64,000 nt of DNA from Burkholderiales bacterium. Its GTDB lineage: Bacteria > Pseudomonadota > Gammaproteobacteria > Burkholderiales > Ga0077523. Position numbers and translations under genes: made by a program. The stretch covers positions 1 through 64,000 of the forward strand of contig JALHMS010000008.1 in assembly GCA_022843925.1 (NCBI GenBank). The letters are read 5' to 3'. Below are positions 50,081 through 53,232 of the stretch, in pieces. Numbering within the stretch: position 1 is the first letter of the stretch; each line of letters opens with the position of its first letter. Below the pieces are notes generated by a model that was given only the letters and a program-made list of their open reading frames with translations, was not told the origin of the DNA and ran no database searches.

Positions 50081-51370
50081 ATGAAGAACCGTCTGATGAT
50101 CTACGGCGCGACGGGCACCGTCGGTCGGGTCGTCGCCCGTCAGGCGGAGGAATGCTGGCGCGAGGCGAATCGCAAAGGCCAGTTGGACATCTGGGCGCGC
50201 CCACCTGCGCTGGCGGGGCGCGATGTCGGTGCCCTGCGTGCCCTGGGCGGGGAGCTTGGGCTGCCCTGGATCGCCGTTTCGCTCGACGATGCCGACGGTT
50301 TGCGGCGAGCGATGGCGGACGCCGCGGTGGTGATCAATGCAGCCGGTCCGTTCGAGGAGACCGCCGAGCCCATCGTCAAGGCATGCCTGCGGACCGGGAC
50401 CCACTACCTCGACCTCTGCGGAGAGCTCGACGTATTCCGCCGTCTGGACAACTACAACCTGGACGCCCTGGATCTCGGCGTCTTGCTGATGCCAGGGGTG
50501 GGGTTCGTCGTGCTGGCCTCCGACTATCTGCTACGCGGCATCCACAAGACTCTCAAGGACGAAGGCTTCGAGTTGACCCAGGTCCGGGTGGCGCTCTCGC
50601 GGCTGGAGATCATGCCGCGCGGGACGGTGAAGAGCATGATCGAATCCATCCGCGAAGGCGTGCTGGTCCGGCGCCATGGGAGATTGGTGCACGTGCCGGC
50701 CGGCCAGGTGGAAAGGCAGTTCCGCTTTGCAGGCGTGCTCCGTACCTGCACGGCGGTCCAGCTGCCTGACCTGATCACTGCGCCCGCCACGATCCGCGCC
50801 GTTGGTGGCAGCGAAGAGCTTTCTGTCGAGACCTTCGGAGAGATGCGTCCGCTCGAACGCTTGAACTACTCGATGAGCGGGATCTTCGCGTCCGTGCTGC
50901 AGGCGTCGCCGGTACGAGACTGGCTACTGCGCCAGGCCGATCTTCTGCCCGCGGAGCCCGGTGGCGACGACCGTGAACAGTGTCTCGTGGTCGAAGGCTC
51001 CGATCGTCACGGCGCGAGGCGCGAAGTGTGGTCGTTCCGTGTTCCTGATGCCGACGCGTTCAGTGCCTGGTCGTCCGTGATGCTGGCGGAGGCGATTCTG
51101 AAGATCTTGGCAAAGGGTCCGTATCCGCCGGAAGTGCCGATCGTGATGAGCGGCCTGGAGAAGGCTTTTCCCTTGGCAGGCTTCCGGACGCCCGCCAGCA
51201 CCTTCTATGGGGTGCTGGACAGCAGATTCGGGGCGTCAAAGGCGTCCAAGGGGAAGGCAGGTGGCTCGCCCCAGGCACAGAGGACCTTGTCCGACCGCGC
51301 TACTCAGACACCATGGGTCGATGTCGATCCGAGTGTCACCACCGTCCAGTTCCGGCTGGGGAACGATTGA
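50081..51370 (+). CDS. Saccharopine dehydrogenase-like / trans-acting enoyl reductase family protein
   Basis: LMIYGATGTVGRVVARQAEE, VVINAAGPFEETAEPIVKACLRTGTHYLDLCGE. Confidence 0.82.
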   Translation: MKNRLMIYGATGTVGRVVARQAEECWREANRKGQLDIWARPPALAGRDVGALRALGGELGLPWIAVSLDDADGLRRAMADAAVVINAAGPFEETAEPIVKACLRTGTHYLDLCGELDVFRRLDNYNLDALDLGVLLMPGVGFVVLASDYLLRGIHKTLKDEGFELTQVRVALSRLEIMPRGTVKSMIESIREGVLVRRHGRLVHVPAGQVERQFRFAGVLRTCTAVQLPDLITAPATIRAVGGSEELSVETFGEMRPLERLNYSMSGIFASVLQASPVRDWLLRQADLLPAEPGGDDREQCLVVEGSDRHGARREVWSFRVPDADAFSAWSSVMLAEAILKILAKGPYPPEVPIVMSGLEKAFPLAGFRTPASTFYGVLDSRFGASKASKGKAGGSPQAQRTLSDRATQTPWVDVDPSVTTVQFRLGND

Positions 51371-53232
51371 TGGCCGGGTCGCCAGATTCGATCGTGATCG
51401 GAGACGTCGCTGCCGTCTCTTTCGATCTGCTTGTCCGGGCCCGACGATTTCCGCCGGGGATCCTCGAGTCGGTCGGCGACGATCGCTCGCGCACGGTCGT
51501 CCCTGGATCGACGGTGCGGGCGCTGTGCATGAAAGGAAGGTTCGATGGCCGGGACGTGCAGGCGATGTGCTTGTTCCGCCATCTGGGAGAGTACGAGATC
51601 ACCTGCGATGTGGTGTTCACGGACGACTCCTTGCTGCTGTCCCGCCTGCGGGAAGGGTTCGCGTTCCCGGCGGTATGGGCCAGGATCAAATGGGAGAAAT
51701 CGAAGATCTCGGTGGAGGCCGAGCTGTTCGGTGAGGCTGAAGGGCAGGAGGACAGTCAGGTGGCCGAAGCCGCCCAACCTGACGAGGTGATTGCGTTCGA
51801 GTTCACCGCCACAGGTCGGAAGACGGCTGGTGTTCCGACCACGTTTGGCGTCCGGCAGCTGTTCCAGATCCGCGATGCGGAGCGTCCGGCGCTGGCGCGC
51901 ACGGAGGCGATCACGAAGTGCAACTTCGGGATCGGATCGGGCAATTCGGAGCCGCTGTGGCGCACCGCCAAGATCAAGGAACTCCAGGTGAAGGGGGGGC
52001 GCAACCTCGATATCGCGAAGGATCTTGGCTTCGAGCCCTCGCAATCGGTGCTCGTCGGTTGGGCCGCGGAAGATCTCGAGATCACGCTGGGCGCGGTCCC
52101 GAACGAGGCGCCTGTCGTCCATCATCGCGCGTTCCACGAGCCCCGGATGGATCCCCGGACGCCGCCACCGTACGTGTTCGATGACGTCGTATCCACTGGG
52201 TTCAAGTTCACCGCGAATCGCGAACACCTCGACGCCATCGTCGATGCCTTGCTCAATGCGCCGGAGGCCGGTCCAGGCGATATCGCCCGCCAGAACTTCC
52301 GCTATGTCGCAGCGAGTACCGAGATCGTCCTGGAGTACCTGGAGTACGGATCCATGCGGTCCACGGCACCGGAGACGAGCGAACGGCGCGACGAGGACTT
52401 CACCTCGCAGTTCGAACTCTGCCTGCGGCTGATCGTCGGTGCGATCGAGGAGGACAGCGAAGCTGCGTCGGACCCCATGGTGTTCTGCCCCGTCCTCTTC
52501 GTCGACAACTGGACCTCGATGGTCAGCGGGCGGGAGGTGATGGGCTACTGGAAGCGCATGGCGGCGTTCGAGCCTGCCCGCGGCACTCCCAACGCCGAGG
52601 CCCTGCGCGAGCGCCTCTGGCCCCACGCCCGGTTCGACGTCACGGAGGAGGGCCAGGCTGATGTTCCAAGGATGGAAAACACTGATGACGTCGAGCGCCG
52701 AATAACCGCCGCGGGCTACGGGGAGCCGATCGTGACGATCCGGCATGCCCTCGATCGAGCGGCGCTTCGACCGGACCACCGCAACCCGGGCCGCTTGGGG
52801 GTCGGCGATGCCCAGCGCTTGTTGCCGTGGAGACAGACGGACTTCGGAGACGTCCGTTTCCGACGTCAGTTCGCCCGGGACTGGTTGCGGGTCAGTGGGG
52901 AGTCGTTCGACACGATCCAGCGTTCCTTCCTTGCCGGACCCAATGGCCGCGCGCCGTACGGTGGCTGGATCCGGACGCGAAACACGGTCCGCGACTTCCG
53001 TGTGGTCCAGCCGGAGGGCGCGGCTGTCCTGACCATGGGGTCCTTCGTTGATCGCGAACTGGCAGTCCGATTGGGTGAGCAGACGGTCCTGGCGGGGGCG
53101 ATCGGCAAGGCACCGGTGATCGACCTCGCCAAGCTTCTCGGCTTGCCCCACAGCGAGATCAAGATCCCGCCTTCCGACTGGTACCTCGCAAGCGGATCCT
53201 TCGACGTGAAGGTCATCGACCGACTGGCGTGA
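51370..53232 (+). CDS. Hypothetical protein with two acetoacetate-decarboxylase-like segments
   Basis: PVLFVDNWTSMVSGREVMGYWKRMAAFE resembles the ADC GREISAYPKKL catalytic segment; LSRLREGFAFPAVWARIKW is a degenerate N-terminal counterpart. Confidence 0.6.
   Translation: MAGSPDSIVIGDVAAVSFDLLVRARRFPPGILESVGDDRSRTVVPGSTVRALCMKGRFDGRDVQAMCLFRHLGEYEITCDVVFTDDSLLLSRLREGFAFPAVWARIKWEKSKISVEAELFGEAEGQEDSQVAEAAQPDEVIAFEFTATGRKTAGVPTTFGVRQLFQIRDAERPALARTEAITKCNFGIGSGNSEPLWRTAKIKELQVKGGRNLDIAKDLGFEPSQSVLVGWAAEDLEITLGAVPNEAPVVHHRAFHEPRMDPRTPPPYVFDDVVSTGFKFTANREHLDAIVDALLNAPEAGPGDIARQNFRYVAASTEIVLEYLEYGSMRSTAPETSERRDEDFTSQFELCLRLIVGAIEEDSEAASDPMVFCPVLFVDNWTSMVSGREVMGYWKRMAAFEPARGTPNAEALRERLWPHARFDVTEEGQADVPRMENTDDVERRITAAGYGEPIVTIRHALDRAALRPDHRNPGRLGVGDAQRLLPWRQTDFGDVRFRRQFARDWLRVSGESFDTIQRSFLAGPNGRAPYGGWIRTRNTVRDFRVVQPEGAAVLTMGSFVDRELAVRLGEQTVLAGAIGKAPVIDLAKLLGLPHSEIKIPPSDWYLASGSFDVKVIDRLA

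Follow-up and report, generated by a model that had tools for sequence, protein, structure and literature searches.

The described proteins closest to the one analysed here are the acetoacetate decarboxylase (ADC; PF06314) of C. acetobutylicum (3bh2) and the aldolase-dehydratases and their relatives, including SBI_00515 (4zbo, 4zbt and 6eej), Swit_4259 (5upb) and MppR (4jm3-4jme). The titles of ADC-superfamily entries in the PDB, which cover both decarboxylases and aldolase-dehydratases, indicate that the fold serves other Schiff-base chemistry too. Residues 29, 76, 115 and 116 of C. acetobutylicum ADC have catalytic roles. Whereas the solved chains of the superfamily are single-domain, a protein encoded in a 64,000-nucleotide stretch of DNA from a Burkholderiales bacterium (GCA_022843925.1, contig JALHMS010000008.1, positions 1 to 64,000; hereafter the window) carries two ADC-like domains in tandem.

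Comparison with C. acetobutylicum ADC revealed both shared and divergent features. The GRE-x-x-[GA]-[YF]-x-K segment is common to the two, a low-confidence model of the N-terminal half of a relative has ADC structures as its top matches, and the C-terminal half of the window protein (C-half) has equivalents of Lys115 and Glu76. In contrast to the C. acetobutylicum enzyme, the window protein has two domains per chain, Ala in place of Lys115 in its N-terminal half (N-half) and neither Arg29 nor Lys116 in either half, and there is no sign of acetone metabolism near its gene. Swit_4259 (5upb) and SBI_00515 (4zbo/6eej) were among the top sequence matches of a profile of single-domain relatives; KK is retained in the catalytic segment of 5upb and 4zbo but not in the subfamily to which the window protein belongs. 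The features of the locus are collected in Table 1.

Table 1. Features of the tandem ADC-like gene and its operon, in window coordinates
Feature	Position	Strand	Basis
Large FAD-dependent oxidoreductase (Amino_oxidase, NAD_binding_8)	45463..48090	+	Pfam matches
Operon protein, 258 aa, no Pfam family	48236..49012	+	Weak relatives at this position in L006 and L007
Polyprenyl synthetase, 351 aa	49009..50064	+	PF00348, E=7e-55; kept in L006, L007, L023, L048 and L055
Saccharopine-dehydrogenase-like NADP-binding oxidoreductase (SDR-like)	50081..51370	+	PF03435, E=2.8e-8
Tandem ADC-like protein, 620 aa	51370..53232	+	Intact ORF; TGATG overlap with upstream stop
N-terminal ADC-like domain, residues 1-258, predicted non-catalytic	51370..52143	+	Profile alignment; PF06314 scores of relatives; fold matches of a relative
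Codons A101-V102, aligned with ADC Lys115-Lys116	51670..51675	+	Residue alignment
C-terminal ADC-like domain, residues 259-620, predicted catalytic	52144..53229	+	PF06314, 22.2 bits; single-domain HMM, 64 bits
Codon E349, equivalent of ADC Glu76	52414..52416	+	Residue alignment
Codon K395, equivalent of ADC Schiff-base Lys115	52552..52554	+	Alignment to 3bh2

Two ADC-like domains in a single chain

The reading frame of the tandem gene is intact: its 620 codons are free of stops, its ATG start sits in a TGATG shared with the stop of the preceding gene, and its codon-position GC (0.67/0.47/0.81) is that of an ordinary coding frame and similar in the two halves, so that neither half looks like decayed DNA. 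An antisense ORF lying over the gene (51304-53685, 793 aa) was rejected because codon-position GC, the full-length relatives and the Pfam matches all favour the forward strand. Pfam placed ADC only at residues 369-404 of the window protein (E=1.1e-4), with 22.2 bits against a curated PF06314 cut-off of 29.8 that was not reached; the full-length relatives L006 and L007 from the same genus exceeded the cut-off, at 63.2 and 40.6 bits, respectively. No NCBIfam family was matched by the tandem protein, and a sequence search of the PDB returned ADC-family chains only, at E 0.14.

To judge by its scores against independent relatives, the C-half of the window protein is clearly ADC-like. An order-wide search supplied seven independent ADC-like proteins, single-domain or fused and each matched by PF06314, from which an HMM was built. 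The window C-half scored 64.3 bits against this HMM, compared with 1.9 bits for the best of 1000 shuffles, and the C-halves of the window protein and its two genus relatives together spanned 64-75 bits, with none of 1000 shuffles equalling them. A profile of the three N-halves also recovered the window C-half, with a score (17.3 bits) that none of 1000 shuffles equalled.

The N-half of the window protein, taken alone, gave no Pfam signal and scored at chance level against the HMM of relatives (-0.9 bits; equalled by 41 of 1000 shuffles); the N-half assignment therefore rests on the relatives L006 and L007, which were not available when two ADC-like domains were originally predicted. The N-halves of these relatives scored 18.8 bits (L006) and 27.6 bits (L007) against the same HMM, with none of 1000 shuffles equal in either case, and against PF06314 the L006 N-half alone reached 38.6 bits, above the 29.8 cut-off, and that of L007 17.7 bits. 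With hhalign, the three N-halves aligned to the single-domain relatives across 247 columns (P 2e-8), which cover the ADC domain almost from end to end.

Structure prediction yielded models of low confidence. The AlphaFold2 model of the full-length window protein, made from three sequences, had a pLDDT of 35 and was not used for fold claims, and that of the L007 N-half was weak (pLDDT 44, pTM 0.50). In a Foldseek search with this pLDDT-44 model, the top 11 PDB chains all belonged to the ADC superfamily, the next match having an E of 0.3, and 12 ADC-superfamily PDB entries matched the same model at Z 6.4-8.2, the next and unrelated entry standing at 3.6. The fold check proposed with the original prediction, which asked whether either half has an ADC fold, thus returned only ADC structures as top matches, for the L007 N-half modelled at pLDDT 44. 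Together with the HMM results, the Pfam scores of the relatives and the residue alignment described below, these data bear out the proposal of two ADC-like domains in one ORF, the assignment of the N-half as a predicted ADC-like domain being supported, and settled, by the two genus relatives.

The tandem form is known from three species of one genus. Besides the window, full-length copies were found in Ga0077526 (L002/L006) and RI_222 (L003/L007), which are 37-38% identical to the window protein over the full length. A profile of the three tandem proteins detected no further full-length copy among 399 genomes of the order, and the N-half profile gave no further match in the class (274 genomes). 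Just the same two species were recovered by a pattern scan that covered one genome for each of 84,980 species and reaches close relatives only, and a PF06314 search of 398 genomes of the phylum, which also misses the window N-half, yielded no ORF with two ADC matches. The narrow yield of these searches suggests that the tandem form is rare, or divergent, or both. No relatives of the tandem protein were detected on plasmids or viral contigs, and the open-access papers searched contained nothing relevant on tandem ADC, ADC pseudoenzymes, or ADC with polyprenyl synthetase or saccharopine dehydrogenase. Within the searches made, we found no two-domain single-chain ADC protein outside this genus and no paper describing one.

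Active-site residues and divergence of the two halves

The catalytic segment of the C-half is FVDNWTSMVSGREVMGYWKRMAAFE (residues 377-401), and its counterpart in the N-half is DDSLLLSRLREGFAFPAVWARIKW (residues 85-108). Both were examined in an alignment of 20 domains, including three reference ADCs, ten single-domain, fused or two-gene members, three C-halves and three N-halves. The reference for residue numbering was the C. acetobutylicum ADC sequence, which matches PDB 3bh2 end to end; the 3bh2 chain numbering puts YPKK at 113-116.

The residue pattern of the two halves agreed with what had been predicted, namely a lysine kept in the C-half and A-V in place of K-K in the N-half: K395 aligns with Lys115 of 3bh2, and A101 and V102 align with Lys115 and Lys116. 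Lys occupies position 115 in each of the three reference ADCs, in the ten single-domain, fused or two-gene members and in every C-half; the three N-halves all have Ala there. Position 76 is Glu or Asp in the same sixteen domains, and the residues aligned to it in the three N-halves are D, I and V, although gaps make this part of the alignment less sure. Outside the N-halves, the sole exception at position 115 is a second ADC-like protein of the same genome (L026), which has Pro there. Arg29 and Lys116 are absent from the whole subfamily, including the C-halves (V273 and R396 occupy these positions in the window C-half), and the residue preceding the catalytic lysine is Trp rather than proline in all three C-halves. 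With Arg29 and Lys116 missing, acetoacetate decarboxylation is not supported as the reaction, and the chemistry may differ.

The two halves also diverge at different rates, the N-halves faster than the C-halves. Between the three species, the front part of the N-half is 26-42% identical compared with 54-74% for that of the C-half, and in a first tree of the front domains the branch lengths were 2.53, 0.53 and 0.92 for the N-halves and 0.36, 0.10 and 0.25 for the C-halves.

These observations bear on two alternative readings of the protein. We consider it unlikely that both halves are non-catalytic, with the protein serving the flavin oxidase of the same operon as a scaffold or binding subunit of ADC fold and K395 being a leftover. 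The loss of Arg29 and Lys116 from both halves, the Trp before the lysine and the Pro of L026, which indicates that lysine loss happens in the ADC superfamily, would all fit such a subunit, but no single-domain, fused, two-gene or C-half member lacks Lys115 or Glu/Asp76, even though the remaining sequence is mostly about 20-40% identical, which speaks for the use of these residues, and the higher conservation of the C-half front also argues against a dead C-half. Still less probable, in our view, is a bifunctional protein in which the N-half remains catalytic through other residues, independently of the lysine. The N-halves do share a conserved core (LRE, P-A, Q-L-Q, RN-D and DLG), suggesting that they are not decaying freely, and their frame is intact with normal codon-position GC; against this stand the lack of any evident alternative set of conserved catalytic residues, the different residue at the Glu76 position in each of the three N-halves and their rapid divergence.

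Operon context and fusions to the flavin oxidase

In the window, the genes for the flavin oxidase, the 258-aa protein, the polyprenyl synthase, the SDR-like oxidoreductase and the tandem ADC-like protein follow one another in this order, which is also that of L006 and L007. The true start of the flavin oxidase gene is probably near 45790, and for the SDR-like gene an alternative GTG start at 50054 is possible. The SDR-like gene precedes the ADC-like gene in L006, L007, L023, L048 and L055. In G252 (L023), the operon ends in a single ADC-like gene with the lysine, on a contig that ends within the flavin oxidase gene. Two genomes representing two genera of another class of the same phylum, G894 (L048) and G1121 (L055), have an operon order identical to that of the window, including a protein of similar length in the place of the 258-aa protein, but differ from it in that the order terminates in two separate, adjacent ADC-like genes, both with the lysine (GREMLGLGK and SREIYGGEK in L048; GREMLGLGK and SREIWGSEK in L055).

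Some additional features of the operon genes were noted. By eye, the 258-aa protein has a helical N-terminal part and a beta-rich C-terminal part. In G252, the counterpart of this protein and the polyprenyl synthase form one 578-aa ORF (L023:16531-18267, reverse strand), which is either a true fusion or an assembly fault. Assignment of the flavin oxidase as an equivalog of the hydroxysqualene dehydroxylase HpnE was ruled out, since it scored 61.5 bits against TIGR03467, for which the NCBIfam cut-off is 283.

Outside this operon, ADC-like domains are found fused to homologues of the window's flavin oxidase. Five proteins of the order (L010-L012, L015 and L016) carry the ADC-like domain N-terminal to the oxidase and are about 1040-1080 aa long, and G235 (L050) has the opposite arrangement, with the ADC-like domain C-terminal; overall, such fusions occur in other genera and measure about 970-1080 aa. 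Like the window protein, the fusions have equivalents of Lys115 and Glu76; unlike it, they contain one ADC domain, joined to the oxidase. Next to the fusion genes, neither a prenyl synthase nor an SDR homologue was detected. In G258, an ADC-like gene immediately precedes that of the flavin oxidase, and in G902 (L049) the flavin oxidase has no ADC-like neighbour in the 20 kb examined. The occurrence of fusions in both orders argues for the flavin oxidase and the ADC-like domain working on one molecule or in successive steps. Of 12 genomes of the genus, five have both the flavin oxidase and the ADC-like protein, and the other seven have neither; as the two share a locus, this co-occurrence reflects co-inheritance of one locus and is not independent evidence.

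The place of the gene in an isoprenoid operon, originally described as unexpected, is no accident: the same operon closes with an ADC-like gene in a further species of the genus and in another class, and elsewhere its flavin oxidase is fused to an ADC-like domain.

The surroundings of the operon showed further differences and recurrences. Two genes upstream of it (43780-45321, forward strand; cupin and quinone-oxidoreductase-like) are 83-96% identical in L006/L007, compared with about 37% for the last gene of the operon, indicating that the operon evolves much faster than its neighbours. On the reverse strand, a gene for a cyclase-AAA-TPR (STAND-type) signalling protein (53213-57133) converges on the ADC-like gene, with overlapping 3' ends. 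Relatives of this signalling protein adjoin an ADC-like or fusion gene in L007, L019, L022, L023 and L050, and L006 has a BTAD/AAA regulator where others carry the cyclase-AAA-TPR gene. The second ADC-like gene of the window's own genome (L026:8173-9531, contig C6; 62.7 bits to PF06314) is followed by a cyclase-AAA-TPR gene.

Origin of the tandem protein and proposed function

The two halves may have originated through an internal duplication or through the joining of two neighbouring paralogues. In the first tree, the N-halves formed one group (80/88) and the C-halves another (59/92), with moderate support. When three more rows were added, the window N-half drifted, as very long branches do. 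Because the operon of another class terminates in two adjacent ADC-like genes (G894 and G1121), it is possible, although we think it the less likely course, that the tandem protein arose by the joining of two such genes rather than by duplication within one. In this enlarged tree, however, the two L048 genes cluster together (94/93), apart from both N- and C-halves, and the single ADC-like gene of G252 joins the C-halves (91/97), which point to separate duplications, with the caveat that all these branches are long and the other forks weak. In addition, the window C-half matches the first of the two G1121 genes and not the second. The two separate G894 genes as direct ancestors of the two halves were likewise unsupported by the tree.

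We propose, with reasonable confidence, that the observations on this locus are best explained by a protein with one Schiff-base-competent and one non-catalytic ADC domain that works in a pathway with the flavin oxidase. A single chain would carry two ADC-superfamily domains, of which the C-terminal one would be active. With help from Glu349, Lys395 would bind a keto group as a Schiff base, and this domain may carry out either a decarboxylation or a step of the aldol/dehydration type. The N-terminal domain, in which the lysine (Ala101) and the glutamate have been lost, would now have a structural or regulatory role, most simply as a built-in partner subunit in a family whose members otherwise form assemblies of identical chains. 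The pathway in which the protein would act also includes the polyprenyl synthase, the NADP-binding oxidoreductase and, as the closest partner, the large flavin oxidase. As the prenyl synthase adjoins, we infer that the substrate is likely to be a prenyl or other lipid keto compound.

On a broader reading, which we judge about evenly balanced between right and wrong, the locus would encode a single-chain ADC pseudo-heterodimer and a partner flavin oxidase of an undescribed prenyl-lipid pathway that spans at least two classes of a single phylum and whose ADC component occurs as one domain, as two genes, as a tandem protein or as a fusion to the oxidase. The pattern of kept and lost residues is a natural experiment that probes which elements of the ADC active site are required. 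Taken with the conserved operon, the fusions suggest a specific and testable biosynthetic step in an uncharacterised prenyl or lipid pathway.
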